32,569 bases of DNA from Aquabacterium olei (GTDB lineage: Bacteria; Pseudomonadota; Gammaproteobacteria; Burkholderiales; Burkholderiaceae_C): contig JAJUHM010000006.1 of the NCBI GenBank assembly GCA_029279925.1, positions 1-32,569 on the forward strand, written 5' to 3'. Position 1 is the stretch's first letter, and each line of letters starts with the position of its first letter. The translations under genes and the position numbers were made by a program. The notes below the pieces were generated by a model, which searched no databases, was not told where the DNA came from, and saw only the letters and a program-made list of their open reading frames with translations. Of the stretch, positions 5,352 to 32,551 are shown one piece after another.

Positions 5352-5374
5352 TCGACTCACCCGGGTACGCCACC

Positions 5375-6415: not shown

Positions 6416-6451
6416 CCCCCTCGTCCCCGTCCTTGTCCCCAGGAGACTGGC

Positions 6452-7588: not shown

Positions 7589-7615
7589 TCAAAAAGCGCT
7601 TCGAAGGAGCCCGCC

Positions 7616-10445: not shown

Positions 10446-10728
10446 AATGCACTTCACCGTCCGCTGGCCGGACGGCACCGAACAGACCTGCTATTCGCCC
10501 TCCCTGGTTGTGCGCGAGCACCTGACGGCCGGGCAGCGCTACCCGCTGCCGGAGTTCCTGCAGCGCACCCACACCGCCCTGTCGATCGCGTCCGAGCGCG
10601 TGCGAGAAAAGTACGGCTTTGCCTGCTCGCGCGCCATGGACCAGTGGGCCGAGATCGAAAGCCAGGCCGAGCGCCACACCCCGTCCCCCCAGGCCGAGGT
10701 CATGGTCCTGCATTTCGACCCTGCCTGA
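10438..10728 (+). CDS. MSMEG_0570 family nitrogen starvation response protein (NitG-like)
   Basis: 96 aa, MPEMHFTVRWPDGTEQTCYSPSLVVREHLTAGQRYPLPEFLQRTHTALSIASERVREKYGFACSRAMDQWAEIE; overlaps the end of the glycosyltransferase gene. Confidence 0.85.
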   Translation: MPEMHFTVRWPDGTEQTCYSPSLVVREHLTAGQRYPLPEFLQRTHTALSIASERVREKYGFACSRAMDQWAEIESQAERHTPSPQAEVMVLHFDPA

Positions 10729-10784
10729 CAGCGCCGCCATTCCTCTTTTCCACACACGCACCCACCCTCCGCGAGGACCCGACC

Positions 10785-14317: not shown

Positions 14318-15222
14318 GGCCCCGCGCGGCCGGCGAGACCGGCGCCCGCCATGCAAGCGACAACCTGAGGGGCATGGGCTGGATGGTGCTGGCGATGGCG
14401 GCCTTCGCGCTGGAAGACGCCTTGCTCAAGCAGGTGGCCCGCATGCTGCCGATCGGCCAGGTCCTGGTGCTGTTCGGGATCGGGGGCGCGCTGGTGTTCG
14501 GGCTCTGCCGACGCGAGGGCATGCAGCCCCTCTGGCACGCCGATGCGCGCTCGAAGCCCATGTGGGTGCGGGCCGGATTCGAGATCACCGGCCGCCTGTT
14601 CTATGTGCTGGCCATTGCGCTGACACCGCTGTCTTCCGCGACGGCCATCCTGCAGGCCACGCCGGTGCTGGTGGTGCTGGGCGCACGCTTTTACTTCGGC
14701 GAACGGGTGGGCGCCGTGCGTTGGGTGGCGGTACTGCTGGGCCTGGCCGGCGTCGCCGTGGTCCTGAGGCCGACCGCGGGCGACTTCTCCGTGCTCTCCC
14801 TGCTGACGGTGGTCGGCATGGTGGGCTTCGCCGGGCGTGACCTGGCCAGCCGTGCGGTGCCCGTGACGCTGGGCACGCGCCACCTCGGCTTCTACGGCTT
14901 TCTGGCCGTGGTGGTGGCCGGTGCGCTGTATGCCGTCTGGCAAGGGCAGGCCTGGGTCTGGCCGGATCGCGCGGGCGCGGTGGCCCTGGTTGTGGCCGTG
15001 CTGGTGGGCACCGGGGCCTATGCTTCGCTGATGAAAGCCATGCGCACGGGCGACGTGGCGGCAGTCACGCCATTGCGCTACACGCGGCTGCTGTTTGGCA
15101 TTGGCCTGGGTGTGGTGGCGTTCGATGAGACGGTGGATGCCGCCACCGCGGTGGGATGCGGCGTGATTCTGTGTGCAGGCCTGCTGCTCGCGCTGAACGC
15201 GCGACGGAGCGGCCTGACATAG
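14314..15222 (+). CDS. DMT family (EamA) transporter
   Basis: About 10 hydrophobic segments; MAAFALEDALLKQVARMLPIGQVLVLFGIGGAL ... TPLSSATAILQATPVLVVLGARFYFGERVGAVRWVAVLLGLAGVAVVLRP; ATGA overlap with ccoG. Confidence 0.85.
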   Translation: MRPRAAGETGARHASDNLRGMGWMVLAMAAFALEDALLKQVARMLPIGQVLVLFGIGGALVFGLCRREGMQPLWHADARSKPMWVRAGFEITGRLFYVLAIALTPLSSATAILQATPVLVVLGARFYFGERVGAVRWVAVLLGLAGVAVVLRPTAGDFSVLSLLTVVGMVGFAGRDLASRAVPVTLGTRHLGFYGFLAVVVAGALYAVWQGQAWVWPDRAGAVALVVAVLVGTGAYASLMKAMRTGDVAAVTPLRYTRLLFGIGLGVVAFDETVDAATAVGCGVILCAGLLLALNARRSGLT

Positions 15223-15260: not shown

Positions 15261-16724
15261 TTACCAGGCGACCGCAGCGTATTTGGTGACGAGGTACTCG
15301 TCGAGCCCCTGACGACCGCCCTCCCGGCCGATGCCTGACTGCTTCACACCGCCGAAGGGCGCCACCTCTGTGGAAATCAGCCCTTTGTTCACGCCCACCA
15401 TGCCGCTCTCGAGTGCTTCCTTGACCCGGTGTACACGGCCAATGTCGCGGCTGTAGAAATAGCTGGCCAGACCGAAAGGCGAATCGTTGGCCAATGCAAT
15501 GGCTTCTTCTTCGGTGCGAAAGCGGACGAGGGCGGCCAATGGGCCGAAAGTTTCCTCGCGCGTCACGCGTGCGTCAGCTGGGACCTCGGTCAGCACGGTG
15601 GGCGCAAAGAAATGGCCTTGAGCCAGTTCACCTCCGCGCAGACGCTCGCCGCCCAGCCGCAGCGCGGCGCCGCGCTGAAGGGCGTCCTGCACGTGCTCCG
15701 CCACCTTATTGCATGCGGCTTCGTTGATGAGAGGGCCTGCCGTGACCCCGTCATGCGTGCCATTGCCCACGCGCAATGCCGATACCGCGGGCAGCAACTT
15801 CTCGACGAAGGCGTCGTACACCGCGTCCTGCACATAAATGCGATTGGCACACACACAAGTCTGTCCGCTGTTGCGGAACTTGGAGGCCATGGCTCCCTGC
15901 ACGGCGGCATCCAGGTCTGCATCATCAAAGACGATGAAGGGCGCGTTGCCACCAAGCTCCAGAGACAGCTTCTTGACGCTGCCGGCGCATTGCCCATAAA
16001 GGAGTTTGCCCACCGTTGTGGAGCCCGTGAAGCTCAGCTTGCGCACCACCTCGCTGGCGCAGAGTGTGGCGCCAATGACCTTGGGGTCTCCAGTGATGAC
16101 CTGCAGCAGGTTGCCGGGGATGCCGGCCTCCTGGGCCAGCTGCGCGAGGGCCAGGGCCGACAGCGGGGTGGCTTCAGCAGGTTTCACGATCATCGGATTG
16201 CCGGCGGCCAGCGCCGGTGCAACCTTGCGGGTGATCATGGCCAGAGGAAAGTTCCATGGTGTGATGGCCGCGCACACGCCAATGGGTTCACGGGTGACCA
16301 CCAGCTGCCGGTCGGCTACCGGGCTGGGGATGGTTTCGCCGTAGATGCGTCGGGCTTCTTCAGCAAACCAGGCGATGTATGCCGCTGCATAGGCGACTTC
16401 ACCGCGAGCCTCGGCCAGCGGCTTGCCTTGCTCGGACGTCAACAGCAGGGCGAGGTCGTCGAGGTGCGCCAGCATCAGGTCGTGCCAGCGCATCAGCAGC
16501 TTGCCGCGTGTCGCTGCGGTCTGTCGTCTCCACGCCGGCCAGGCCAGCCGGGCGGCCGCGATGGCACGGAGGGTCTCCGCTTCGCCGAGCAGGGGCACGT
16601 ACGCAAGCACCTCGCCGGTGGCCGGGTTGTGCACGGCAAATCGGGCTTGGGCGTCTGCATCGGCCCATTCGCCTGCGAAAAAGGCTTGCTGACGCAGCAG
16701 TTCGGTGTGTTTCAGGGTGAGCAT
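15261..16724 (-). CDS. NAD(P)-dependent succinate-semialdehyde dehydrogenase family
   Basis: 487 aa; ITPWNFPLAMITRKVAPALAAGNPMIVKPAEATPLSALALAQLAQEAGIP, LSLELGGNAPFIVFDDADLDAAVQGAMASKFRNSGQTCVCANRIYV; SSADH-like throughout. Confidence 0.9.
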   Translation of the reverse strand: MLTLKHTELLRQQAFFAGEWADADAQARFAVHNPATGEVLAYVPLLGEAETLRAIAAARLAWPAWRRQTAATRGKLLMRWHDLMLAHLDDLALLLTSEQGKPLAEARGEVAYAAAYIAWFAEEARRIYGETIPSPVADRQLVVTREPIGVCAAITPWNFPLAMITRKVAPALAAGNPMIVKPAEATPLSALALAQLAQEAGIPGNLLQVITGDPKVIGATLCASEVVRKLSFTGSTTVGKLLYGQCAGSVKKLSLELGGNAPFIVFDDADLDAAVQGAMASKFRNSGQTCVCANRIYVQDAVYDAFVEKLLPAVSALRVGNGTHDGVTAGPLINEAACNKVAEHVQDALQRGAALRLGGERLRGGELAQGHFFAPTVLTEVPADARVTREETFGPLAALVRFRTEEEAIALANDSPFGLASYFYSRDIGRVHRVKEALESGMVGVNKGLISTEVAPFGGVKQSGIGREGGRQGLDEYLVTKYAAVAW

Positions 16725-16781: not shown

Positions 16782-17465
16782 TCAGCTCTGCTCTTGATGC
16801 AGGGCTTCGAGTGCGCGTGTTGCGGCCTGTCGTACGTGGGCCTCTGCCGCTCTTTGCGCTGCCTCGGGCTGACGTTGACGGATCGCTTCCAGGAGCTGCT
16901 TCATTTCTGCCGGGCCGCTGCTGCTGCGTTCCCGACTTGTGATCGTGATGGCACGCAAGCGGTTGATGCGGGCGTTCAGGCTCTGGACGATGCTCCAGGC
17001 CACTGCTTCACGGCCTGCCGAGAACATCACTTCATAGAAACGGGTCGTCTCGGCCAACACCCCGACATGGTCGTTCTGCGCAAACGAGGCTTCAATCAAC
17101 ATGAGCGCGGCCGCCATGCGGACGATGGCCTGTTCATCGGCCAGTCGGGCGCAGGATGCTGCAGCATGCCCCTCAAGCAGCGCACGGATCTCGTAGATCT
17201 GGCGGGTGGTCTCGAGATCGATCGTTGCCACGATGGGGCCCTGCCCCTGAGGCGTTTCCACCAAACCTTCGGTTTCGAGGTGACGCAGGACTTCCCGCAC
17301 GATGGTGCGGCTGACCCCGAGTTCGTCGCACAGCGTCCGCTCCACCAGGCGCTGACCTGGCTGAAAGTACTGTCCGATGATGGCGTTGCGCATCTTCTCC
17401 AGGGTCAACTCCCGCAGGGTCTTCTGGTTGCGGTCGATCCGGAGTGAGCTACCTTGGGCTGGCAT
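16782..17465 (-). CDS. GntR family transcriptional regulator, FadR/FCD subfamily
   Basis: 227 aa; TLEKMRNAIIGQYFQPGQRLVERTLCDELGVSRTIVREVLRHLETEGLVETPQGQGPIVA wHTH plus helical FCD domain. Confidence 0.92.
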   Translation of the reverse strand: MPAQGSSLRIDRNQKTLRELTLEKMRNAIIGQYFQPGQRLVERTLCDELGVSRTIVREVLRHLETEGLVETPQGQGPIVATIDLETTRQIYEIRALLEGHAAASCARLADEQAIVRMAAALMLIEASFAQNDHVGVLAETTRFYEVMFSAGREAVAWSIVQSLNARINRLRAITITSRERSSSGPAEMKQLLEAIRQRQPEAAQRAAEAHVRQAATRALEALHQEQS

Positions 17466-18668: not shown

Positions 18669-19778
18669 TCAGGCTGCCGCGTGCACCTGGCTTTGGGCGA
18701 TGTCCCAGCTGAGGTGGGCGGTGGATCCGATCTGCCAGTCGGCCGGCACGCCAGGGCGAAGGGGGACGCGGATGTCGAGGTCCTGCTCCCAGGCTGTACT
18801 GAGATGCACCTGCATGACGTCACCGAGGTAGCTCAGGTCGGTCACGCGAACAGGGATGCTCGGGCCGTCGTGCCGCGCTGCGTGCTGCAGTGACAGACGG
18901 TCGGGGCGCAGCATGAGCGCCGCGTCGGCGCCTGTCGGTGCGTCACAGCGCAAGGGCGCATTGGCTACGCGACGTCCATCGGGCAGGACGACGTCCGCAA
19001 GCCCCCCTCGGCGCTGTTCCAGCTTGACGGGCAGGAAGTTGCTGTGGCCGATGAAGCCCGCCACAAAACGGGTGGCGGGGTGCTCGTACAGCTCGTGGCC
19101 CGTGCCCACCTGTTCGATGCGTCCTTTGTTAAACACGGCAATGCGATCAGACAGACGCAGCGCTTCCTCCTGGTCGTGGGTCACGTACAGGATCGTGATG
19201 CCCGTGTCGTGATGAATGCGTTTGAGCTCGAACTGGATCTCCTCGCGCAGTTGCTTGTCAAGTGCCGACAGCGGCTCGTCCATCAGCAACACCGGCGGGT
19301 TGTAGGCCAGCGCGCGGGCGATGGCCACCCGCTGCTGTTGCCCGCCCGAGAGCTGGCTGGGCTTGCGGTCGCCGTGCTGATGCAGGTGAACCAGCTTGAG
19401 CATGGCCTGCACCCGCTCGGCGATGCGAGATCTCTCCCAGCCGCGCACTCGCAACGGGAAGGCAACGTTCTCCGCCACGCTGAGGTGGGGAAACAGCGTG
19501 TAGCGCTGAAACACCATACCGATGTTGCGCTCGTTGGGTGGCACATTAAGCAGCGGTTTGCCGGCAAGCTGCACTGTGCCTTCGGTAGGATCCTGGAAGC
19601 CGGCGGTGATGTAGAGCGTCGTGCTCTTGCCTGAGCCTGACGGGCCGAGGAAGGTCATGAACTCACCCTCGCGGATGTCCAGCGACACGCCGTCGATCGC
19701 CACGGATTGGCCGTAGGTCTTGCGCAGGCCGCGGATGCTCAGGAAGGGGGCGTCAGGGGTTGTCGTTTCAGTGGCCAT
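18669..19778 (-). CDS. ABC transporter ATP-binding protein (PotA-like, spermidine/putrescine family)
   Basis: Walker A GPSGSGKST, signature LSGGQQQRVAIARALAYNPPVLLMDEPLSALDK, TOBE-like C-terminus; start MATETTTPDAPFLSIRGLRKTYG. Confidence 0.93.
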   Translation of the reverse strand: MATETTTPDAPFLSIRGLRKTYGQSVAIDGVSLDIREGEFMTFLGPSGSGKSTTLYITAGFQDPTEGTVQLAGKPLLNVPPNERNIGMVFQRYTLFPHLSVAENVAFPLRVRGWERSRIAERVQAMLKLVHLHQHGDRKPSQLSGGQQQRVAIARALAYNPPVLLMDEPLSALDKQLREEIQFELKRIHHDTGITILYVTHDQEEALRLSDRIAVFNKGRIEQVGTGHELYEHPATRFVAGFIGHSNFLPVKLEQRRGGLADVVLPDGRRVANAPLRCDAPTGADAALMLRPDRLSLQHAARHDGPSIPVRVTDLSYLGDVMQVHLSTAWEQDLDIRVPLRPGVPADWQIGSTAHLSWDIAQSQVHAAA

Positions 19779-20577
19779 GGTCGTCGTCTTTCTTGAACAG
19801 GGCAGCAATCAGCATGAAGATCAGGGTGATGCCGATCAGCACGGTGGACACCGCAGCGATCACGGGTGACAGGTCTTGCCGCAGGGCGCTCCAGATGCGC
19901 ACTGGAAGGGTTTCCATGCCGGGCGTCGCCATGAAGATGGAAACGACCACTTCGTCCCAGGACACTAGGAAGGAGAACACGCCGGCGGCGAACAGGCTGA
20001 GGCGCAGGGCGGGCAGCGTGACACGCCACTTCACCTGCCATGGAGTGGCGCCGCAGATCAAGGCCGCCTCCTCGAGCGCGAAGTCATAGCCTTCGAGTGC
20101 GTTGCACAGCGTGATGATGGAGAAGGGCAGTGCAATCACCAGGTGGCCGATGACGAAGCCCACAAAAGTACCCGTCAGGCCGACCTTGAGACACAGTGCG
20201 TACAGCGCCACGGCCAGCACCACCACGGGCAAGACCATCGGGGTGATGAAAAAGCCTCGGAGTAGCGCGCGCCCCGGGAAGGTGCCTCGTACCAGCGCCA
20301 GGGCTGTGATGAACCCGAGGCTGACGGACAGCGCGGTCACGACGAGCGCGACGCGGGTGCTGTGCCACATCGCCTGCAGCCATCCGGGATCGGCCCACAT
20401 TTCGCGGTACCACTGCAGCGTCCAGCCAGGCGGGGGAAAGATGAGCCAGGGTGAGGAGCCGAAGGACAGCAGGGTGATGAAGACGATCGGTGCGAGGAGG
20501 AACGCCACCACGAGTGTGCCGATGGCGCCCAGGCTCAGACGGAGGGGGAGGCCCAGGCGATCATGGTCAAGCAGCAT
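19768..20577 (-). CDS. ABC transporter permease (PotC-like)
   Basis: MLLDHDRLGLPLRLSLGAIGTLVVAFLLAPIVFITLLSFG; EEAALICGATPWQVKWRVTLPALR (EAA loop). Confidence 0.9.
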   Translation of the reverse strand: MLLDHDRLGLPLRLSLGAIGTLVVAFLLAPIVFITLLSFGSSPWLIFPPPGWTLQWYREMWADPGWLQAMWHSTRVALVVTALSVSLGFITALALVRGTFPGRALLRGFFITPMVLPVVVLAVALYALCLKVGLTGTFVGFVIGHLVIALPFSIITLCNALEGYDFALEEAALICGATPWQVKWRVTLPALRLSLFAAGVFSFLVSWDEVVVSIFMATPGMETLPVRIWSALRQDLSPVIAAVSTVLIGITLIFMLIAALFKKDDDHGH

Positions 20578-21448
20578 GCTGGCCTCCCTTCGCTGGGAAG
20601 AGTTTGAGTTGAAGGGCGTACAGGCCCAGGGTGATGACGAGCAGCACCAGGGAGGCGGCCCCTGCAAGGCCCCAGTTGAGAAGGGACTGCACCAGCTGGG
20701 CGATCAGTTCGGCCAGCATCATGTGGCTGGCGCCCCCAAGCAAGGCGGGGGTCACGAAGTAGCCCAGAGACATTACAAACACCATCAGCGCGCCGCTGGC
20801 CACACCGGGCAGGGCCAGTGGCCAAAGCACCAGCCAGAACGCCTGCCAGCGCGAGGCGCCACACGTGGCGGCGGCACGCAGGATCGCCGGGTCCAGCGCC
20901 TTGATCGTCGCGTGCAGGGGCAGAACCAGGAAGGGCAGCATGATGTAGGTCATGCCGATGGTGACGCCCGTGAGGTTGTTGACCAAGGCGAGTGGTTCGT
21001 CGATGACGCCCCATTTCATCAAGGTCTGGTTGATGAAGCCAGTGCGTTGCAGCAGCACCATCCAGGCGTAGGTCCGAACCAGCAGGTTGGTCCACATGGA
21101 TAGCAGCAGGCAGCCCATCAGGAAGCGGCTCCAGCGGCTCGGCATGATGGCCATCAGCCAGGCGACCGGGAAGCCCAACACCACCGTTACCACGGTGACC
21201 ACGGAGGCGACCAGCAAGGTGTTGTAGAGCACCTTGACGTAGGTCCAGCTGCCAACAAGTTCTGCGTAGTGCTGCAGGCCGAACTCGGGCTCTGTGATGC
21301 TGCGCAGGAGCAGGCTCAGAACGGGCAGCACGAAGAACAGAGCCAGCAGGGCCAGGGAGGGGGTGAGCCAGGCGAGGCCGCTGCGCCGTCTGGGCGGTGC
21401 AGCGACGGCCGGTAGAGCCAAGGTGGCCGTCATGGTGTCAGTGGGCAT
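20567..21448 (-). CDS. ABC transporter permease (PotB-like)
   Basis: MPTDTMTATLALPAVAAPPRRRSGLAWLTPSLALLALFFVLPVLSLL; RAAATCGASRWQAFWLVLWPLALPGV (EAA loop). An alternative start at 21469 is possible. Confidence 0.9.
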   Translation of the reverse strand: MPTDTMTATLALPAVAAPPRRRSGLAWLTPSLALLALFFVLPVLSLLLRSITEPEFGLQHYAELVGSWTYVKVLYNTLLVASVVTVVTVVLGFPVAWLMAIMPSRWSRFLMGCLLLSMWTNLLVRTYAWMVLLQRTGFINQTLMKWGVIDEPLALVNNLTGVTIGMTYIMLPFLVLPLHATIKALDPAILRAAATCGASRWQAFWLVLWPLALPGVASGALMVFVMSLGYFVTPALLGGASHMMLAELIAQLVQSLLNWGLAGAASLVLLVITLGLYALQLKLFPAKGGQHAA

Positions 21449-21508
21449 GGGTTCATCCTCTAGGGGCAAGCGCAGGGGCCGAGCCCCTGCGCACTTCCGC
21501 GGCGCGGG

Positions 21509-22552
21509 TTACTGGGCCTGCCAGGCGTACCAGCGCTTGGCGACGACGTCGCGGTTCTCTGCCCACCAGGCCATGTTCAGGTTGATCTGGCCTTTGGTGA
21601 ACTGATCGGGCAGGGCCTTGACCGCCGCAGGGGACATCAGCGCCTTCGAACCGAGGTTGACCGGGGCGTAGGCTGTGTCCGTCGCGAAGTCGGCCTGCCC
21701 CTTGGCACCAGCGGCATAAGCCAGGAACTTCATCGCCTGGGCCTTGCGCTTGCTGCCCTTGGGAACGACGAGCACGTCGGCGGCTGTCAGGCTTTGAGTC
21801 CACGACACGTCCACGTTCTGGCCACTGCTCTCGACAGAGTGCACGCGACCGTTCCAGAACACGCCGATGGGCGCTTCCCCCGAAGCCAGCAACTGCTGCG
21901 ACTGGGCGCCTCCCGTCCACCACACGATGTTGCCCTTGATGGTGTCCAGCTTCTTGAAGGCGCGGTCGAGGTCCAGCGGGTAGAGCTTGTCGGCAGGCAC
22001 GCCGTCGGCCAGCAGGGCCATTTCCAGCACGCCAGGGGCGGACCATTTGTAGAAGGTGCGTTTGCCGGGGTAGGTCTTGGTGTCGAACAGGGCCGAGAAG
22101 TTGGCGGGGGCCTTGCCCTTGTAGATGTCCTTGTTGAAGGCCATCACGAAGGCGTAGTAGAAGCTGCCCACGTGGTACGGACCGGAGAAACGCGGGTCGA
22201 GCTGGGCCTTGGGGACCACGCTGTAGTCGATCGGCTCGAGCAGGCCATCCTTGGCGGCCTTCGCGGCAAAGTCGGCCTCGACGTCGACCACGTCCCATGT
22301 GACGTTGCCGCTCTCGACCATGGCCTTGAACTTGCCGTAATCGGTCGGACCGTCTTGCTGCACGGTGATGCCCGTGACCGCAGTGAAGGGGACGGCCCAG
22401 TGTTTCTTCTGGGCAGCCTGGGTGGTGCCACCCCAGCTGGTGAAGACGATGCCGTCTTGCTGGGCTTGCGCGCTCAGGCTGGTGGCGCCCAGCAGGCCCA
22501 TCACAAGGGTGGCGATGGCGTGACGACGGGGGGAGCGAAGGGTATCGGTCAT
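21509..22552 (-). CDS. ABC transporter substrate-binding protein (PotD-like)
   Basis: 347 aa; signal peptide ending AQAQQDG; IVFTSWGGTTQAAQKKHWAVPFTAVTGITVQQDGPTDYGKFKAMVESGNVTWDVVDVE. Confidence 0.92.
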   Translation of the reverse strand: MTDTLRSPRRHAIATLVMGLLGATSLSAQAQQDGIVFTSWGGTTQAAQKKHWAVPFTAVTGITVQQDGPTDYGKFKAMVESGNVTWDVVDVEADFAAKAAKDGLLEPIDYSVVPKAQLDPRFSGPYHVGSFYYAFVMAFNKDIYKGKAPANFSALFDTKTYPGKRTFYKWSAPGVLEMALLADGVPADKLYPLDLDRAFKKLDTIKGNIVWWTGGAQSQQLLASGEAPIGVFWNGRVHSVESSGQNVDVSWTQSLTAADVLVVPKGSKRKAQAMKFLAYAAGAKGQADFATDTAYAPVNLGSKALMSPAAVKALPDQFTKGQINLNMAWWAENRDVVAKRWYAWQAQ

Positions 22553-22592: not shown

Positions 22593-22907
22593 TCAGGGCA
22601 AGGGGGAGAAGGAAGCCGGGCGCATGACCTTGCTGTCCATTTCCTCGATCAAGGCCTGGATGTGTGGGATGAAGGCTTGCCAGGCTGGGTCGGCAGCCAG
22701 CGTGGCGCGGCGACGGTCGCGTTCGTCCAGGCTCTGGAAAGCCCAGATGTGCACGATCTGGTTCTGGGGTCCGATGTCGGACTGGAAGTACCCGACCAGG
22801 TGGCCGAGGTGCGCGCGCTGGATCGCGATGCCTTGCTCGCCCACCAGGGCCAGGTAGTTGGGCAGGGCGCCGACCTTGAGGCGATAGGTGCGGATCTCGT
22901 AGTACAT
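22593..22907 (-). CDS. NIPSNAP family protein
   Basis: 104 aa; MYYEIRTYRLKVGALPNYLALVGEQGIAIQRAHLGHLVGYFQSDIGPQNQIVHIWAFQSLDERDRRRATLAADPAWQAF. Confidence 0.88.
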   Translation of the reverse strand: MYYEIRTYRLKVGALPNYLALVGEQGIAIQRAHLGHLVGYFQSDIGPQNQIVHIWAFQSLDERDRRRATLAADPAWQAFIPHIQALIEEMDSKVMRPASFSPLP

Positions 22908-22909
22908 GT

Positions 22910-24406
22910 TCAGCGCATCACGAAGGGGTCGGGGATGGGAGCGTCCGAGGTGTTGATCCAAACGGACTTGGTGCGGGTGTAAGCCAGCGCGGCTTCCATG
23001 CCACCTTCGCGGCCCAGACCGCTTTGGCCGAAGCCGCCGAAGGGCACAAGCGGAGAGACGACTCGGTAGGTGTTGACCCACACGATGCCGGCGCGCAACT
23101 CGCGGATGAGGCGGTGGGCCCGCGTCAGGTTGGTGGTGAACACGCCCGAAGCCAGACCGTAAGCGCTGTCGTTGGCCAGCGCGATGGCCTCGGCTTCGTT
23201 GTCGAAGCGGATCACGCTGAGCACGGGACCGAAGAACTCGGTGCGCAGGCTCGGGATGTCGGCGTGCGGACAGTCCAGGATGGTGGGCGCGACATAGTGG
23301 CTGTCGGGCGCGAAACCTTCTGCCGTGCCGCCGCCGCACACCAGCGTGGCACCCGCATCGATGCTGGCCTTCACGGTGCGCTGAAGGTGCTCGACCTGCT
23401 TGCGCGTGGCCAGCGGTCCCATCTCGGTGGCCAGATCTTGCGGGCTGCCGATGCGGATCCGGGCAGCCTTCTCGGCCAGCATGGCCAGCAGGCGATCGGC
23501 CACGCCACGCTGCACCAGCAGGCGTGAGCCAGCCACGCAACTCTGGCCGCTGGCACCGAAGATGCCAGCGACGATGCTGTTGCAGGCGCTTTCCAGATCG
23601 ACGTCGTCGAACACCAGCACGGGCGACTTGCCACCGAGTTCGAGCGAGGTGTCGGCCAGGTTCTCGGCCGTGTTGCGCACGATGTGCCGCGCGGTCTCCG
23701 GGCCACCGGTAAAGGCCACCTTGTCGACCAGTGGGTGCGTGGTCAGCGTTTGGCCGCAGTCGTGGCCAAAGCCAGTGATGACGTTGACCACCCCGGCGGG
23801 GAAGCCCGCTTCATGCACCAGCTTGGCAAAGGCCAGCAGAGGCGCCGGGCCTTCTTCAGACGCTTTTAGCACCACGGTGCAGCCTGCTGCCAGTGCGGGA
23901 CCCAGTTTGACGGCCGAGAGAAAGAGCTGCGAGTTCCACGGCACGATGGCGGCCACCACGCCCAGGGGCTCGCGGCGGGTGTAGGCCTCCATGTCGGCCT
24001 TGTCCACCGGCAGGTGGCGGCCTTCCATCTTGTCGGCGAGGCCCGCGTAGTAGCGGTAGTACTCGGCCACGTAGCCGATCTGCGCACGGGTTTCGCGGAT
24101 CACCTTGCCGGTGTCGCGCGTTTCCAGCTCGGCCAACATCGTGGCGTCGCGGGTGATCAGATCCGCCAGCCGGGCCAGCAACTTGCCGCGCGCACTAGCA
24201 TGCAGGCCGCGCCAGGGAGACGCTGTCAAGGCCCGATGGGCTGCTCGCACGGCACGGTTCACGTCTTCCGACGTGGCGGCGGGCATGCGGGCCCAGGCCT
24301 GGCCGGTGGCCGGGTCCACGCTGTCGAAGTGCGCGGTGCCCGGCTCGAATTGGCCGTCGATGTAGTGCTGGAAGGTCTGCAGCATGGCGGGCCTGAGTGG
24401 GTTCAT
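22910..24406 (-). CDS. NAD(P)-dependent aldehyde dehydrogenase
   Basis: 498 aa; VAAIVPWNSQLFLSAVKLGPALAAGCTVVLKASEEGPAPLLAFAKLVHEAGFPAGVVNVITG; SLELGGKSPVLVFDDVDLE...FGASGQSCVAGSRLLVQ. Confidence 0.93.
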   Translation of the reverse strand: MNPLRPAMLQTFQHYIDGQFEPGTAHFDSVDPATGQAWARMPAATSEDVNRAVRAAHRALTASPWRGLHASARGKLLARLADLITRDATMLAELETRDTGKVIRETRAQIGYVAEYYRYYAGLADKMEGRHLPVDKADMEAYTRREPLGVVAAIVPWNSQLFLSAVKLGPALAAGCTVVLKASEEGPAPLLAFAKLVHEAGFPAGVVNVITGFGHDCGQTLTTHPLVDKVAFTGGPETARHIVRNTAENLADTSLELGGKSPVLVFDDVDLESACNSIVAGIFGASGQSCVAGSRLLVQRGVADRLLAMLAEKAARIRIGSPQDLATEMGPLATRKQVEHLQRTVKASIDAGATLVCGGGTAEGFAPDSHYVAPTILDCPHADIPSLRTEFFGPVLSVIRFDNEAEAIALANDSAYGLASGVFTTNLTRAHRLIRELRAGIVWVNTYRVVSPLVPFGGFGQSGLGREGGMEAALAYTRTKSVWINTSDAPIPDPFVMR

Positions 24407-25440
24407 TGGAAGGCGGGAACGACCTGGGCGATGAAGCGTTCCAGCGTGCGCTTCTTGGTCTCGAAGGGCATGCAGTTGTCGATCCAGAAGCTGTACTGGT
24501 TGTAGCCCTGGGCTTCGTACGACTTCAATCGGGCGATCACCTCATCGGCCTGACCGATCACCAGCGTTTCGCGCAGCTTCTCGGGGGCGTACTGCGGGAA
24601 GGCGTCGAGGTCTTCCTGTCGCAGCGGCTCCATCAGCCCTTGCTCGATCGGGCGTTCCTTTTTCACCCACTTCATGAAGTGGCAATAGAAGGCCTGCAGA
24701 TCCTTGCACGCCTGGTTGACTTCCGCCTCGTCAGCACCGACGAAGGTGTGCATCAGCAGCATGATCTGCGGGCGCGGCACCTCGGGGTGGGCCGCACAGG
24801 CAGCGTTGAAGCGGTCCATCAGAGAGGCCACTTCGGCGTCGCCTGAGGCCAGCGGAGTGACCTGTACATTGCAGCCGCTTCCCACGGCGAAGTCGTGCGA
24901 ATGCGGGTCGCGGGCGGCGATCCACATCGGTGGCCAGGGCGACTGCACCGGTCGGGGCAGCGGGGTGGTGGCCGGGAACTGCCAGTAAGGCGTATCGGCG
25001 GATGCATTGCCCTGGAACAGCCTTTGCAACAGCGGCACCATGTCGCGCATGCGGGCGCCGGCCTCCATTGCGTCCAGCCCCGGGAACAGGCGTTCGTATT
25101 CGAACATGTAGGCGCCGCGGGCAATGCCGAGGTCCAGCCGGCCCTTGCTGAGGGCGTCGACGAGCCCCGCCTCACCAGCGAGCTTGATCGGGTGCCAGAA
25201 CGGCGCGATGACGGTGCCCGTGCCCAGGCGGATGGTCGACGTCTTGGCAGCCAGGTGGGCGAGGTTCACGAAAGGGTTCGGTGCAATGGTGAACCCCATG
25301 CCGTGATGCTCGCCGACCCATGCGGCCTCAAAGCCGCCCCGCTCGGCGATCTGCACCAGCTCGGTCATCTCATCGAGTTGCTGCGTGATGGGGGTCTGAT
25401 CGTCGTAGCGCTCGACGTGCAGGAAAAGAGAGAACTTCAT
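24403..25440 (-). CDS. LLM class flavin-dependent oxidoreductase (bacterial luciferase-like monooxygenase)
   Basis: 345 aa; MKFSLFLHVERYDDQTPITQQLDEMTELVQIAERGGFEAAWVGEHHGMGFTIAPNPFVNLAHLAAKTSTIRLGTGTVIAPFWHPIKLAGEAGLVDALSKGRLDLGIARG. Confidence 0.93.
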   Translation of the reverse strand: MKFSLFLHVERYDDQTPITQQLDEMTELVQIAERGGFEAAWVGEHHGMGFTIAPNPFVNLAHLAAKTSTIRLGTGTVIAPFWHPIKLAGEAGLVDALSKGRLDLGIARGAYMFEYERLFPGLDAMEAGARMRDMVPLLQRLFQGNASADTPYWQFPATTPLPRPVQSPWPPMWIAARDPHSHDFAVGSGCNVQVTPLASGDAEVASLMDRFNAACAAHPEVPRPQIMLLMHTFVGADEAEVNQACKDLQAFYCHFMKWVKKERPIEQGLMEPLRQEDLDAFPQYAPEKLRETLVIGQADEVIARLKSYEAQGYNQYSFWIDNCMPFETKKRTLERFIAQVVPAFQ

Positions 25441-25463: not shown

Positions 25464-26357
25464 TCAGGCGGTGGCCAGGGGGCGCACTTCGCCCGCGTCC
25501 TGGTTGCCGATGTAGATGCCGAAGGCGTCCTGGGCACGCTCACGCGCATAGCGGTTGAGCATGGCCTGCAGGGCGGTGTTGGCCAGGTTGAGTCGCGGTA
25601 ACTCGGCCACCGGGATGCAGCGCAAGGCATTGTCCTTGGGGGGGTGTGCGCTGCGGCCGCGGTACACGATGCGCGAGCCGGTCGGCGTGTCAAACACCGC
25701 GAAAAGGAAGTCGACCGAGGCCTGTACGCCATGTTGCTTCAGCGCGTCCAGCAGGCCAGCCACATCTCCTGAGGTGGGCAAATCCAGACCGTCCGGTCCG
25801 GCACTCAGCAAGACGCCATCCGGGGTCTCGATGAGGGCGGTGGTGCGTGCCTGGCGGGCCAGGGCTTCCTGCGCGGCCTGCTGCAGCTGGAAGCCGACAT
25901 AGGCTCCCTGGCAATAGCCCAGCGGTCGGGCCGTGCGCTGGCCCATGTCCTGTACCTGCCCGATCAGGATGGTGTGGTCGCCGGCATCCACACGTTGATG
26001 CACAGTACAGTCGAACCAGGCCACTGCCCCGGCGATGAGCGGGGCACCGGTGGTGCCCGGGTGCCACGCCGCCTGGCTGAACTTGTCGGGCGACTTGGAA
26101 GCGAACAGACCACTGATGTCTCGCTGGTCTTCGGCCAGGATGTTGATGGCAAAGCGGTCAGCTTCCATGAACACGGGGTGGCTGGCCGTGGTCTTACCCA
26201 GGCAGACCAGCACGAGGGCTGGATCGAGCGACACCGAGGTGAATGAGTTGGCCGTCAGGCCGCGCGGCGTGCCGTCGGTGTCGACCGTGGTGACGACCGT
26301 CACACCGGTCGGGAAGTTGCCGAGGGCTTGCCGAAAGGCTTTGGGATCGATGCTCAT
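25464..26357 (-). CDS. Flavin reductase family protein with an additional C-terminal (degenerate Nudix-like?) domain
   Basis: 297 aa; MSIDPKAFRQALGNFPTGVTVVTTVDTDGTPRGLTANSFTSVSLDPALVLVCLGKTTASHPVFMEADRFAINILAEDQRDIS (flavin reductase-like); extra ~130 aa ALIETPDGVLLSAG...GSRIVYRGRSAHPPKDN... Confidence 0.9.
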   Translation of the reverse strand: MSIDPKAFRQALGNFPTGVTVVTTVDTDGTPRGLTANSFTSVSLDPALVLVCLGKTTASHPVFMEADRFAINILAEDQRDISGLFASKSPDKFSQAAWHPGTTGAPLIAGAVAWFDCTVHQRVDAGDHTILIGQVQDMGQRTARPLGYCQGAYVGFQLQQAAQEALARQARTTALIETPDGVLLSAGPDGLDLPTSGDVAGLLDALKQHGVQASVDFLFAVFDTPTGSRIVYRGRSAHPPKDNALRCIPVAELPRLNLANTALQAMLNRYARERAQDAFGIYIGNQDAGEVRPLATA

Positions 26358-27199
26358 GCGGCCTCCAGTTTGTTTGCGCGGGCCTCCGCGGCCAGCAGGA
26401 AGGGGAGCAACTCCCCGTGGACTTGCGGGGCACCGGTCAGCCCCATCATGTGTCGCTCACCGGCCAGGACCCGGCACCGGGAGCCCGGGACTGCGGCGGC
26501 CATCGACTTGGTCATGTCCGGTGTGGAATTCGGATCGAACTCGCCGGTCATGAACAGGGCGGGGGGCTGCAGTTCAGTCAGTCTTCCAATGTGGGCGCGG
26601 TCGCTCGTGGCAAACAGGGCATAGGTGCGGGCATAGCCTTCTGCGTTCACGTCTTCAAGCAGGCGCTTGCACAGCTGCGCCGTTGTTTCCAGGTAAGGCG
26701 GGATCGGCTGACCAAACCAGCGTGCCAGCGTGGCCGCGATCCCGCCCTGTGTGTTGGACGTCTGCAGGCTGCGCACACGTTCCTGCACAGCCTCCCGTTG
26801 GGCGTCGCTGCGGTTGTAGACCGCATTGAGCGCGCTGACGCTCAGGCAACGTGCCGGCTCTCGCAAGGCAAATTCCAGTGCCACCAGCGCGCCCATGGAG
26901 TGGCCCACGATGTGAGCACGAGGCAGGTCCAGCTGGTCAAGCAGACGCTTGACCTGGTCTGCATAGTCCGCAAGTGCCGGGTTTTCCGGCGGGAGCGGGC
27001 TGCGGCCATGACCGAGCATGTCGAAGGTCACCACGGTGCGATCTCGGGCGAAGCCCAGGATCTGGGGCACCCACACGTCCTGCTGCATGCCGACGCCGTG
27101 TATGAACACGATGGGCGTCCCTTGTCCATACACCGCATAGCTGGTCCCGTCGGGCAACAGACCGCGGGCGCGGCTGGGGGGCGGCTGGAGTTCAGGCAT
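26354..27199 (-). CDS. Alpha/beta hydrolase
   Basis: Start MPELQPPPSRARGLLPDGTSYAVYGQGTPIVFIHGVGMQQDVW; VGHSMGALVALEFAL nucleophile elbow; MTGEFDPNST; AGERHMMGLTG. Confidence 0.9.
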   Translation of the reverse strand: MPELQPPPSRARGLLPDGTSYAVYGQGTPIVFIHGVGMQQDVWVPQILGFARDRTVVTFDMLGHGRSPLPPENPALADYADQVKRLLDQLDLPRAHIVGHSMGALVALEFALREPARCLSVSALNAVYNRSDAQREAVQERVRSLQTSNTQGGIAATLARWFGQPIPPYLETTAQLCKRLLEDVNAEGYARTYALFATSDRAHIGRLTELQPPALFMTGEFDPNSTPDMTKSMAAAVPGSRCRVLAGERHMMGLTGAPQVHGELLPFLLAAEARANKLEAA

Positions 27200-27776
27200 T
27201 GTTTTGCAGCTCCGCCATGTCCTTGTAGCGGTCACCAATGCGGTGGTGTGGGCGGCCGCCGATGGAAGCGCCCAGTGCCACGACGATTTCGTCGGGTGCT
27301 GGCGCATCGGTGATCGAGAACTGGATCGTCAGATAGTGCGAGCGCATGCCCTCGTCGTGCTTGTGCATCAGGGGAATGGCGATGGGACACGCCGGCCCGC
27401 CCCGCACGTTGGTGAAGCTCAGGAAGCTTTTAGCGCCCACGGCGTTTCGGTAGTGGTTGCCGAAGCGGAGCGTATGGGTCAGGGCGGAGGCGTGTTCGAC
27501 TTCGCCGGACGTGCCGACGATGGCCGCTTTGCCGTAGGCCTCCACGGCCTCGCCCGAGCCGGCCATGCGGATGATCTCCCGCGTCAGCAGTTCACCCAGT
27601 TGCGGCGCGATCTCGCGAATCTCGGGCTGAAGGTCCTCCACGAAGCCTCGGCCCGCCCAGGGGTTGCGCAACACTGCCGCAGCGGCAAACAGGCGCAGGG
27701 GTTTGGCGGCCACCTTGCCGCCTTCAATGAGGGTGTCTTCCGTATAGGTGACGACTTTGCGAAGGGCGAACGTCAT
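27192..27776 (-). CDS. Amino acid synthesis family protein (PF06684/DUF1185)
   Basis: Start MTFALRKVVTYTEDTLIEGGKVAAKPLRLFAAAAVLRNPWAGRGFVEDLQPEIREIAPQLGELLTREI ... AIVGTSGEVEHASALTHTLRFGNHYRNAVGAKSFLSFTNVRGGPACPIAIPLMHKHDEGMRSHYLTIQFSI. The ORF track extends it to 28130 through the upstream region. Confidence 0.88.
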   Translation of the reverse strand: MTFALRKVVTYTEDTLIEGGKVAAKPLRLFAAAAVLRNPWAGRGFVEDLQPEIREIAPQLGELLTREIIRMAGSGEAVEAYGKAAIVGTSGEVEHASALTHTLRFGNHYRNAVGAKSFLSFTNVRGGPACPIAIPLMHKHDEGMRSHYLTIQFSITDAPAPDEIVVALGASIGGRPHHRIGDRYKDMAELQNNA

Positions 27777-27809
27777 GAGCAGATTCCTTGGTTGTTGGCG
27801 CTTTGTATG

Positions 27810-27823
27810 TTGGTATACCAAGC
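27810..27823. promoter_or_regulatory. Candidate FCD-GntR operator, site 1 (TTGGTATACCAAGC)
   Basis: 12-bp perfect palindrome TTGGTATACCAA at 27810-27821, 33 nt of sequence from the 27776 start codon; resembles TTGGTnnnACCAA-type sites of FCD GntR regulators. Confidence 0.6.
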
Positions 27824-27945
27824 TGTTGGTGAGTGGATTTGAGCAGAGAGATCTCAGCCTGTGATCCCGGGATTTACCCGAGCTTCTCTCCAGGTATGCG
27901 GTTTGGAAGTGCTGTCCTAAACAGCTTTTAAGAAAGTGTTGTCGT

Positions 27946-27959
27946 ATGGCATACCAAGC
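27946..27959. promoter_or_regulatory. Candidate FCD-GntR operator, site 2 (ATGGCATACCAAGC)
   Basis: 12 of 14 positions identical to site 1, same orientation, 136 bp farther upstream in the same intergenic region. Confidence 0.5.
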
Positions 27960-28157
27960 ATGTATCGGGCCTGCTTTTGCCACGTGTCGGTGCTCGGAAC
28001 ATGAGAGAGGTGAAGCACCGGTGATGGCGATCTGCAGTGGCACTTCAGCTGGTGCCTTGAACTGGTTCGGTCTGCCTCGGCTCGGTGCACGGCGGGCAGC
28101 CGTGGTGCACCGGCTCTGAAGCAGCCGCATACCGACCGCATCGTCCGAGCATGAAGA

Positions 28158-28224: not shown

Positions 28225-29589
28225 TTAGCCGGTCTGACCCGGCACCCAGCTCGTGCCGGCCAGCGGCACCTGGGCCATGGCCGCGGCCTCCACCGTCAGG
28301 GCCACCAGGTCTTCCGGCTCCAGATGGTGCACGTCCTGCTTGCCGCAGGCGCGGGCCAGCGTGGTCAGCTCCATGGTCAGCGTCTTGAGGTAGTTCTTGA
28401 GGTGCTTGGCACCCCATTCCGGCTCCAGGCGCTTTTCCAGCACGGCGTCCTGCGTGGTCACACCCACCGGGCACTTGCCCGTGTGGCAGTGGTGGCAGAA
28501 GCCGGGCGCGGTGCCCAGCGCGGCGTAGTCGGCCTCGGCGCTGTGCTGCTGGCCGCCTTGCTGGTAGGTGTCGCGGTTGCAACCCAGGGCCATCAGCACG
28601 CCCTGGCCGATGGCCACGGCGTCGGCACCCAGGGCCAGGGCTTTGGCCACGTCGGCGCCGGTGCGGATCCCGCCCGACACGATCAGCTGCACGGTGCCCT
28701 TCATGTCGAGGTCTTCCAGCGCGGCCACGGCCTGGCGCACGGCGGCCAGGGTCGGGATGCCCACGTGCTCGATGAAGCAGGTCTGCGTGGCGGCGGTGCC
28801 ACCCTGCATGCCGTCGACCACCACCACGTCGGCACCGGCGTGCACGGCCAGCTTGACATCGTTGTAGACGCGGGTGGCGCCCACCTTCACGTAGATCGGC
28901 TTTTCCCAGTCGGTCAGTTCGCGCAGTTCCTGGATCTTGATGGCCAGGTCATCGGGGCCGGTCCAGTCGGGATGGCGGCAGGCCGAGCGTTGGTCCACGC
29001 CTTCCGGCAGGGTGCGCATCTTGGCCACGCGCGGGTTCACCTTCTGGCCCAGCAGCATGCCGCCGCCGCCCGGCTTGGCGCCCTGGCCCAGCACCACCTC
29101 GATGGCATCGGCCTTGCGCACGTCGTCGGGGTTGAAGCCGTAGCGCGAGGGCAGGCACTGGTACACCAGCGTCTTCGACGAGCGACGCTCTTCCTGCGTC
29201 ATGCCGCCGTCACCGGTGGTGGTCGAGGTGCCGATGGCGGTGGCCGCCAGGCCCAGGGCTTCCTTCACGTTGGCCGACAGCGCGCCGAAGCTCATGCCGG
29301 CCACGGTGATGGGGGTGTCCAGCACGATGGGCTTCTTGGCGAAACGGGTGCCCAGCACGGTCTTCGTGCTGCACTTCTCGCGGTAGCCCTCCAGCGGGTA
29401 ACGCGACAGCGAGGCGCCCAGGAAGACCAGGTCATCGAAGTGCGGCAGCTTGCGCTTGGCGCCCAGGCCGCGGATTTCGTACAGGCCGGTGTTCGAGGCG
29501 CGGTGGATGTAGTCCAGCGTGCTGCGGTCGAACGACGCGGATTCTTCGCGTTGCAGGCGCTTGAAGGTGATGGGGTGTTCGGTGCTCAT
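28225..29589 (-). CDS. mgsC: FMN-binding glutamate synthase family protein; N-methylglutamate synthase subunit C / GlxD-like
   Basis: 454 aa; PITVAGMSFGALSANVKEALGLAATAIGTSTTTGDGGMTQEERRSSKTLVYQCLPSRYGFNPDDVRKADAIEVVLGQGAKPGGGGMLLGQKV ... CHHCHTGKCPVGVTTQD (GltB-like FMN/3Fe-4S). The mgs versus glx name is inferred from gene order. Confidence 0.88.
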   Translation of the reverse strand: MSTEHPITFKRLQREESASFDRSTLDYIHRASNTGLYEIRGLGAKRKLPHFDDLVFLGASLSRYPLEGYREKCSTKTVLGTRFAKKPIVLDTPITVAGMSFGALSANVKEALGLAATAIGTSTTTGDGGMTQEERRSSKTLVYQCLPSRYGFNPDDVRKADAIEVVLGQGAKPGGGGMLLGQKVNPRVAKMRTLPEGVDQRSACRHPDWTGPDDLAIKIQELRELTDWEKPIYVKVGATRVYNDVKLAVHAGADVVVVDGMQGGTAATQTCFIEHVGIPTLAAVRQAVAALEDLDMKGTVQLIVSGGIRTGADVAKALALGADAVAIGQGVLMALGCNRDTYQQGGQQHSAEADYAALGTAPGFCHHCHTGKCPVGVTTQDAVLEKRLEPEWGAKHLKNYLKTLTMELTTLARACGKQDVHHLEPEDLVALTVEAAAMAQVPLAGTSWVPGQTG

Positions 29590-29600
29590 GACAGGGCTCC

Positions 29601-30290
29601 TCAGTAGGTTTGATCAGCGTCTGCGTTCCAGTGGTACAGCGAGCGAGCGGAAGCCACGCGCTTGAAGTCTTGCGGCTTGTGGTTCAGGCCCGCGGCGGCC
29701 AGCAGCTCGGTCAGCGCGGTGATGTCGCTGTCGCCCAGTGGCTCCAGCTGCGCATCGGCGCCCAGGCTCTTGATCTCGCCCTTCACGTAGATCACGGCTT
29801 CGTACAGCGAATCGCCCAGAGCGTCGCCGGCGTTGCCGCAGATGACCATGCGGCCGGCTTGTGCCATGAAGCCCGAGAAGCTGCCGACCGAGCCCCCCAC
29901 CACGATGTCGCCGCCCTTGAGCGAGATGCCGCAGCGCAGGCCCGCATCGCCGTCGATGATCAGCAGGCCACCGTGGGCCGAGGCCCCGGCGCTGTTCGAG
30001 GCAAAGCCCTTCACGTGCACCTTGCCGCTCATCATGTTCTCGGCCACGCCGGTACTTGCACTGCCGTTGATCGTCACGTCGGCCAGCTTGTTCATGCCGG
30101 CCGCGTAGTAGCCCGCATGGCCATCGATGGTCACCTTCACCGGGGCGTTCAGGCCCACGGCGATGTTGTGGGCACCATCGGGGTTCACGACGGTGATGTG
30201 CTGACCGGTCAGCTCGGCTGCCGGGCCGTGCAGGTGCTGGTTGAGCGGGCGAACGCCACCCTGGCTCAGGTCAAAGGTCAGGCTTTCCAT
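29601..30290 (-). CDS. mgsB: GXGXG-domain protein; N-methylglutamate synthase subunit B / GlxC-like
   Basis: 229 aa; beta-helix GXGXG repeats: VTIDGHAGYYAAGMNKLADVTINGSASTGVAENMMSGKVHVKGFASNSAGASAHGGLLIIDGDAGLRCGISLKGGDIVVGGSVGSFSGFMAQAG. Confidence 0.88.
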   Translation of the reverse strand: MESLTFDLSQGGVRPLNQHLHGPAAELTGQHITVVNPDGAHNIAVGLNAPVKVTIDGHAGYYAAGMNKLADVTINGSASTGVAENMMSGKVHVKGFASNSAGASAHGGLLIIDGDAGLRCGISLKGGDIVVGGSVGSFSGFMAQAGRMVICGNAGDALGDSLYEAVIYVKGEIKSLGADAQLEPLGDSDITALTELLAAAGLNHKPQDFKRVASARSLYHWNADADQTY

Positions 30291-31186
30291 ACGTACATCT
30301 CCTCAGGGGCAGGTTCAAAGACGGTGGCGTGCTTCACATCGGGCAGGTGGGCCAGCGAGCGGAACTCGGAGGCAATGGCCACGTAGTCGTCGGTTTCGGC
30401 CACCACGGCCGGCTTGCAGGCAAAGGGGTCGCGGATCAGGGCGAGCTCGGTCGAGGTGCCCATCAGGAAGGTGTAAAAGCCATCCAGCGCTTCGAAGCCC
30501 TTCTGCAGTGCGTTGTGCAGGGTGTCGCCTTCGCGCAGACGCCACTCCAGGAAGCGGCAGGCCGCCTCGGTGTCGTTGTCGGTCTCGAACTGGATGCCAC
30601 GCGGCTCGAGCATGCGGCGCACGCCGTTCGGGTTCGACAGCGAGCCGTTGTGCACCAGGCAGAAGTCTTCACCGGCGGTGAAGGGGTGTGCGCGGTCCGG
30701 CGTCACGGCCGACTCGGTGGCCATGCGGGTGTGGCCGACCAGGTGGCTGCCTTGCAGCTGGCTGAACTGGTAGCGGGCGGCCACTTCAGCCGGTGTGCCG
30801 ATGTCCTTGTACAGGTCGATGCTGCGGCCGGTCGACAGCAGGTGCAGCTTCGGACCGTAGGCCTTGACGAAGGCCTTGACCGGCTCGGCCGCGCCCTCGA
30901 AGGTGATCACGGCATGGTTGGCCTTGACGCTCGCCTTGGCCTGGACTTTCAGCTCGGCGTTGAGCGCGTCCAGCAGGGCCGACCAGTCGTAGTCGTTGCC
31001 TTCCTCGGTCAGGCCCGAGTACACGCTGATCTTGCGCAGGCCCGCGGGCAGCGGGTCGGTGAACACGGCCAGGCCGGCCGAATCGGGGCCACGCTCGGTC
31101 ATGCCGATGAGCATGGGCACCATGAGCTCGCCGAGCTGGCTGCGCAGCGCGGGCTTCTTGAGGAGCAATCCAACGATTCCACACAT
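30278..31186 (-). CDS. mgsA: Class II glutamine amidotransferase; N-methylglutamate synthase subunit A / GlxB-like
   Basis: 302 aa; MCGIVGLLLKKP (Ntn Cys2), GSHLVGHTRMATESAVTPDRAHPFTAGEDFCLVHNGSLSNPNGVRRML. Confidence 0.9.
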   Translation of the reverse strand: MCGIVGLLLKKPALRSQLGELMVPMLIGMTERGPDSAGLAVFTDPLPAGLRKISVYSGLTEEGNDYDWSALLDALNAELKVQAKASVKANHAVITFEGAAEPVKAFVKAYGPKLHLLSTGRSIDLYKDIGTPAEVAARYQFSQLQGSHLVGHTRMATESAVTPDRAHPFTAGEDFCLVHNGSLSNPNGVRRMLEPRGIQFETDNDTEAACRFLEWRLREGDTLHNALQKGFEALDGFYTFLMGTSTELALIRDPFACKPAVVAETDDYVAIASEFRSLAHLPDVKHATVFEPAPEEMYVWKA

Positions 31187-31204
31187 GATGGGTCTGTTCC
31201 TTCT

Positions 31205-32551
31205 TCAGAAAAATTCCAGGTATTGCTTGACTTCCCAGTCCGAGACATGGCGCTGGTATTCGATCCACTCCATGCGCTTGAGCTTGAGGAACTCCTTGGC
31301 GACCGGGCCCAGGGCGCCCGTGATCAGCTCGTCGGCTTCCAGCGCATCCAGGGCGGCGCCCAGGTTCTGCGGCAAGAGGCCAATGCCCGCATCCTTGAGC
31401 TGTGCATCGCTCCACTCGTAGAGGTTCACGTTGCGCGGGGCACCCGGGTCCAGCTTGCGGTCGATGCCATCGAGACCGGCTGCGATCACAGCGGCGGTGG
31501 CCAGGTAGGGGTTGCAGGCACCGTCAGGCAGGCGCAGTTCCAGACGACCCTTGGGCACGTGCACCATGGTCGAGCGGTTGTTGTCGCCGTAGCTGATGTA
31601 GGCCGGGGCCCAGGTGGCGCCGGTCAGCGAGCGGCCCACTACCAGACGCTTGTACGAGTTCACCGTCGGGGCGCACAGCGCGGTCAGGGCCGGCGCGTGG
31701 GCCAGCAGGCCGCCCAGGAAGTGATAGGCCATGGGCGACAGTTCCAGCCCGTTGGCATCGGCCTTGTCGCAGAACAGGTTGCGCTTGCCGTCGCCGATGG
31801 ACAGGTGCATGTGCATGCCGTTGCCCGGGCGGTTGGCAAAGGGCTTGGGCATGAACGAGCACACCAGGCCCATCTCGTTGGCGATCTCGGCGGCCGCCAT
31901 CTTGAAGAACACAAAGTGATCACACGAGGTGAGACAGTCTGTGTAGGTGTAGTTCAGTTCGAACTGGCCGTTGGCGTCTTCGTGATCGATCTGGTAGACG
32001 TCGATGCCGGTGGCGCGCATCACGTTGGAGAGCTTCTCCAGGTAGGCGCGGGTGCGCGACAGGCCCTTGTAGTCATAGCAGGGCTTGGCCAGCGTGTCGC
32101 TGGGGTCGCAGGGCTCGATGCCGCCGGACTCGGTGCGACGCAGCAGCGAGAACTCGGGCTCCAGACCGGTGAACATTGTCAGGCCGCGCTCGGCCAGACG
32201 GGCCACCTGCTTCTTCAGCGTGACGCGGCTGTCGTAGACCCAGGGTTCGCCTTCCACATGGCCTTCGCACACGATGCGGGCCAGGCCGGGCTGCCAGGGC
32301 ACCAGCGAGACGGTGCTCAGGTCGCCGCGGGCCATGAAGTCCGGGCCGTGGGGCTCGATGCCGACGCCGCAGATGGCGAAGCCGGCGAAACCGGCGCCGT
32401 CGGTCAGCACGGTCTCCAGATGCGCCACTGGCACCGACTTTGCCTTCGCCACACCGTGGATGTCGACAAACTGGGCCAGCACATAGGACACGCCCTGGGC
32501 ACGCAGGTATTGCTGCGCTTCTTCGACGGTGTCGAAACGCACGGGGGGCAC
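31205..32551 (-). CDS. gmaS: Glutamine synthetase family protein, type III-like / gamma-glutamylmethylamide synthetase (GmaS/GlnT-like); frame open past the window edge so the start may lie outside
   Basis: [99 protein letters not shown]. Followed by mgsA/B/C-like genes in the same orientation. Confidence 0.88.

Follow-up and report, generated by a model that had tools for sequence, protein, structure and literature searches.

Predicted operators of an FCD-GntR regulator upstream of a PF06684-first catabolic operon in Aquabacterium olei

Introduction

The question raised by this locus is which factor reads two short palindromes that precede a long catabolic operon, and what it does there. The window, meaning the whole 32,569-nucleotide stretch of Aquabacterium olei DNA that was analysed, carries a minus-strand unit running from 27776 to 15261, with a PF06684 gene first and a succinate-semialdehyde dehydrogenase (SSADH) gene last. 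In all probability, the palindromes are operators of an autoregulated FCD-GntR repressor encoded within the unit (16782-17465), and a ligand, likely an N-methylated pyridinium, would release the dimer. The computed basis of this reading is the sites themselves, their conservation, their linkage to one regulator clade, the conserved DNA-contact residues, and the promoter overlap in relatives.

The operon and its setting

The genes of the unit and the neighboring gene group are as follows.

27192-27776, minus strand: PF06684 (AA_synth/DUF1185) family protein, first operon gene (Pfam 1.8e-71; ATG at 27774-27776)
26354-27307, minus strand: alpha/beta hydrolase ORF, N-terminus overlapping the PF06684 gene
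25464-26357, minus strand: flavin reductase (PF01613)
24403-25440, minus strand: LLM-class (bacterial luciferase-like) flavin monooxygenase (PF00296)
22910-24406, minus strand: aldehyde dehydrogenase (PF00171)
22593-22907, minus strand: NIPSNAP-family protein (PF07978)
18669-22552, minus strand: polyamine-type ABC importer with binding protein, two permeases and ATPase (A. olei plasmid annotation)
17547-18566, minus strand: porin (PF13609)
16782-17465, minus strand: FCD-GntR regulator (PF00392 and PF07729), proposed to bind both operators
15261-16724, minus strand: SSADH (TIGR01780, above cut-off)
28225-32551, minus strand: N-methylglutamate-synthase-like subunits (FMN-binding GltB-like, GXGXG/GlxC, class II GATase) and a type III glutamine synthetase/GmaS-like protein

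A near-identical segment is found on the A. olei plasmid pTB101. Because the N-terminus of the hydrolase ORF overlaps the PF06684 gene and its A. olei counterpart starts later, the true hydrolase start is probably near 27199. The genes of 28225-32551 end 268 bp before the distal palindrome; they may be relevant as a candidate methylamine sink, and their membership in the regulon is putative. Elsewhere in the window, plus-strand genes at 5204-12074 encode a CN-hydrolase (nitrilase), radical SAM, GNAT and AIR-synthase-like proteins, a glycosyltransferase and a flavin oxidoreductase; in A. olei, the annotation calls this group the MSMEG_0565-0570/Sll0786 ‘nitrogen starvation’ cluster.

Two probable operator sites in the window

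Two sites lie upstream of the PF06684 gene.

27806-27825, no strand assigned: operator 1, 20-bp extended site TATGTTGGTATACCAAGCTG (unique in the genome; supported by matrix score; kept in relatives)
27942-27961, no strand assigned: operator 2, a near-copy, with the 12-mer ATGGCATACCAA at 27946-27957 (two mismatches; kept in Aquabacterium)

Operator 1 holds a perfect 12-bp palindrome, TTGGTATACCAA, at 27810-27821 (0 mismatches), 34-45 bp upstream of the PF06684 ATG, and operator 2 lies 170-181 bp upstream. Read in the direction of the operon, operator 1 is TTGGTATACCAA and operator 2 is TTGGTATGCCAT. The half-sites are arranged as TTGGT-AT-ACCAA (general form TTGGT-N2-ACCAA). The first-pass annotation had described two sites 136 bp apart, and both positions and the spacing are correct. 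Its remark that they share one orientation says little because both are palindromic, and the resemblance that it saw to TTGGTnnnACCAA, with a spacer of 3 nt, fails on the 2-nt spacer found here.

No other place in the window comes within two mismatches of the palindrome. Shuffled windows held a mean of 0.07 such places, and none of 100 shuffles held two. A scoring matrix was trained on sites from other genera, with Aquabacterium left out, and its background was set by thirty simulated 32-kb sequences (mean best score 3.7, maximum 9.5). Operator 1 scored 21.8, well beyond the simulated maximum, and operator 2 scored 7.2, above the mean simulated best and below the maximum. Because operator 2 is weak on the matrix alone, its support comes chiefly from conservation within Aquabacterium. 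Both scores fall under the training range (lowest training site 23.3) because Aquabacterium has TTGG...CCAA and GC-richer flanks. Between the operators, at 27869-27882, lies CCCGGGATTTACCC (GGGTAAATCCCGGG on the operon strand), which is nearly retained as GGGTAAGTCCCGGG in another Aquabacterium locus (L047) despite diverged surroundings and is possibly another control element.

The assembly (3.99 Mb in 640 contigs, 87% complete) contains a single TGGTATACCA core, and matches relaxed to two mismatches occur at 16 places versus 19 for the reversed control; a genome-wide regulon built on relaxed matches was rejected on this count. The relaxed match with the top matrix score (11.9, C24:15747) is inside an ORF, and C1:53436 and C10:1497, rejected as further sites, also lie within ORFs and score near zero. 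A literature search for the motif string returned mainly RSV primers and unrelated items, with no bacterial operator among the matches listed.

Conservation in orthologous loci

The PF06684 protein, used as query against GTDB species genomes, retrieved 80 loci. The two sites are present in all four Aquabacterium loci seen, where the surrounding intergenic DNA has mostly diverged; the spacings are 136, 136, 135 (L047) and 155 bp (L048), with the window and A. olei counting as a single observation because they are almost identical. Outside this genus, 70 of the 78 PF06684 orthologues have the TGGTATACCA core (at most one mismatch) in the 300 bp upstream, compared with 8 of 1560 shuffled upstream regions under the same criterion, and the site consensus is TATTATGGTATACCATAATA. 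Conservation in orthologous promoters, on which the earlier proposal of operators depended, is thus borne out. In five further loci (L069, L070, L077, L079, L081) an exact core lies about 1.1 kb upstream, and in L070 a 335-aa ORF fits between this core and the PF06684 gene. The locus counts are not independent because many loci are closely related.

Most relatives have one site only. An extra site precedes the NIPSNAP-ABC operon in Acidocella and the SSADH gene in an Acinetobacter locus, so the regulon appears to reach the rest of the pathway. In the Burkholderiaceae loci L050-L063, two GntR copies of the same clade flank the operon, and two sites are 41-42 bp apart. Two Caballeronia loci (L067, L076) carry two divergent PF06684 clusters back to back, which match the window at about 79% and 65% identity.

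The FCD-GntR regulator

The product of 16782-17465 has the domain make-up of the FadR subfamily, an N-terminal GntR winged helix-turn-helix (PF00392, 6.8e-15) and a C-terminal FCD domain (PF07729, 9.4e-21), both above gathering cut-offs. The cluster-linked GntRs (100 sequences) fall together on one side of a branch supported at 99/99. Nearly every complete locus has gntR linked to the cluster, a linkage that is partly built in because the loci were collected through the PF06684 gene. The gntR gene is mostly divergent with the site in between. Elsewhere it stands beside the operon, and when it comes first in the operon, the motif is upstream of both gntR and PF06684.

The helix-turn-helix residues of the window regulator are E42, R43, S52, R53, T54, R57 and E58, of which E42, R43, S52, R53, R57 and E58 are invariant in the cluster-linked clade. 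FadR DNA-contact positions were taken from PMC4494728, and the FadR sequence used for the alignment agrees with the residue table of that paper. FadR R35, R45, R49 and E34/E50 align with E42, R43, R53, R57 and E58; FadR H65 is not conserved in the aligned regulator. The FadR-subfamily operator consensus is TKGT/ACMA, with 2-nt spacing in the UxuR, GntR, HpxS, HypR, MdcY and PrpR groups (PMC4494728), and both window sites are palindromes of the subfamily type TKGT-N2/3-ACMA near target genes. These 2-nt systems share with the window the palindromic TKGT-N2-ACMA, the AT-rich flanks, the Arg-G contacts, a site near the regulator gene and a catabolic operon, and single or double sites in divergons. 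They differ in that the named families match the window regulator only distantly and in that the regulon is a different pathway. Assignment to PhnR, UxuR, GlcC or NanR was rejected, all being far below NCBIfam equivalog cut-offs (best match PhnR_burk, 82 bits against 271; UxuR model, 37 against 442).

Control loci help to place the motif. The TGGTATACCA core is absent from the 3.5 kb around all 28 PF06684 paralogues (37-45% identity). Among 25 distant GntR loci (34-42% identity), it stands beside the regulator in L135 only; a one-mismatch match in L143 is not next to the regulator. L135/L166, a GntR-EamA unit with no pathway cluster, keeps the site 97 bp ahead of its own gntR, suggesting that the motif goes with the regulator and not with the PF06684 gene, though this GntR (L166:8387-9319, about 40% identity) is a looser relative outside the cluster-linked clade. 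The window likewise has an EamA gene, at 14173-15222 beside the SSADH gene. When the regulator alone was used for the search, GntR orthologues at 58-60% (L131-L134) all pointed back to this operon, whose PF06684 gene is preceded by two sites at a spacing of 41-44 bp. Some other FCD-GntR paralogues have the recognition helix SRTV but no nearby site, so this helix alone does not define specificity.

The FCD domain typically holds its effector in a metal-binding pocket with four ligands, an Asp and three His. By sequence alignment, the corresponding positions in the clade are T140 (97/100), Y144 (100/100), M188 (89/100) and H210 (99/100), so that only the last His is kept. Because T140, Y144 and M188 replace three of the four ligands, the alignment suggests that the effector is held without a metal. 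The A. olei RefSeq entry starts the GntR 24 residues later than the 16782-17465 ORF, which would cut into the beginning of the DNA-binding domain and is probably a start-site error.

Proposed mechanism of repression

The ligand-free regulator dimer would sit on operator 1 with one helix-turn-helix on each TTGG half-site, covering the promoter region of the PF06684-first operon and blocking transcription, while operator 2 would take a second dimer. A pathway substrate or intermediate would bind the FCD domain; an N-methylated pyridinium, for example trigonelline, is the likeliest candidate. The ligand-bound dimer would then leave, and the operon, regulator and importer included, would be expressed. 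Binding, repression over activation, the effector and the single transcript are the parts that we infer.

That the sites serve the unit's own FCD-GntR is very likely, and that they serve repression is likely. In 40 of 71 loci among the relatives, the core is preceded by a TTGACA-like hexamer (one mismatch allowed) whose first base lies 16-17 bp ahead of it. A dimer on the site would therefore mask the promoter, as expected of a repressor. At the stringency used, a sigma-70 promoter scan of the window's intergenic region passed nothing, and neither the window nor L048 shows TTGACA at the expected position. Many loci have gntR divergent from the operon and preceded, at 50-150 bp, by the same site, which argues for direct autoregulation there. 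In the window, autoregulation would be indirect and assumes one transcript, because gntR is about 10 kb downstream. Of the loop-assisted, autoregulated repression proposed by the first-pass annotation, the FCD-GntR operators and autoregulation are supported by comparative evidence (the conserved motif and the gntR/PF06684 arrangement), and looping is not.

Alternative explanations

Under looping, two dimers of the same regulator on the same sites would cooperate across 136 bp, with the loop needed for repression. The spacing invites this idea, as 136 bp makes 12.95 turns of 10.5 bp each, L047 has 135 bp, and the Burkholderiaceae pairs at 41-44 bp come to about four turns. However, spacings among two-site loci are 41-44, 89, 135-136, 155, 172-185 or 176 bp, with other pairs out of phase (89, 172, 183 bp) and no helical phase preference among these loci (R 0.19, p about 0.7). 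The L048 spacing is shifted to 155 bp, and most relatives manage with a single site. Looping is not supported because both spacing and site number vary, and we regard it as unlikely. Somewhat less probable still is an activator or dual-role regulator in place of a simple repressor. Some FadR-subfamily members do act as activators, and operator 2 is far enough upstream to suit an activator, but the site lies between the TTGACA box and the start codon in those 40 of 71 loci, which is a repressor position.

The sites could also be bound by another factor, the FCD-GntR link being incidental. The window gntR is some 10 kb distant, and L103, L108 and L048 have sites without gntR on the DNA examined, which includes truncated contigs. 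Yet the motif is of the GntR/FadR class, one regulator clade accompanies the sites across alpha-, beta- and gammaproteobacteria, and the L166 GntR-EamA unit retains its site in the absence of the pathway cluster, making this reading very improbable. As for a chance palindrome in AT-richer intergenic DNA, a lone 12-bp palindrome is indeed short, but a core that is unique in the genome and widely conserved leaves this next to no credence, and the conservation test refutes it. A repressor encoded by the unit itself remains the preferred reading.

The predicted pathway

Enzyme families suggest that the operon serves trigonelline-type catabolism, a reading we consider rather probable, because a monooxygenase, flavin reductase, aldehyde dehydrogenase, hydrolase and SSADH stand beside methylamine-assimilation genes. 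The latter would fit a pathway that releases methylamine. The Tgn pathway includes, beyond TgnA and TgnB, an aldehyde dehydrogenase, a hydrolase and SSADH, and the full set with LLM monooxygenase and flavin reductase is present in the window at the family level. Trigonelline degradation in Acinetobacter baylyi, as cited in PMC8269262 and PMC11354265, involves TgnA, a flavin reductase, TgnB, a luciferase-like monooxygenase, and further enzymes. The same enzyme classes occur in one cluster in both, a likeness at the level of families, and an Acinetobacter cluster has homologous genes together with the GntR clade and the site. The window operon differs by its extra PF06684 and NIPSNAP genes and porin.

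The substrate could not be read from PDB relatives of the monooxygenase, hydrolase and aldehyde dehydrogenase, and the literature search found no gene-level description of a homarine operon as an alternative pathway. Sinorhizobium meliloti has a homologous cluster on pSymA, in the neighborhood of nodL and noeB. Betaine catabolism genes are placed on the symbiotic plasmid of this species by Goldmann et al. 1991; the shared location is the likeness, and any identity between the two gene sets is putative. Tentatively, and with somewhat less confidence than in the pathway, the clade may comprise FCD-GntR repressors that have lost three of four metal ligands, sense trigonelline or a closely similar N-methylpyridinium betaine, and control a catabolic regulon on plasmids and symbiosis plasmids of alpha-, beta- and gammaproteobacteria.

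Significance

The bacterial switch proposed here is ordinary in mechanism, and the little-studied pathway probably degrades plant compounds of the trigonelline type. The analysis predicts which regulator, operator and regulon belong to a catabolic cluster that is widespread and whose substrate is putative. Structures of the PF06684 family have been solved, and the role of the family, along with the substrate and the inducer, becomes directly testable by reporter and binding assays.
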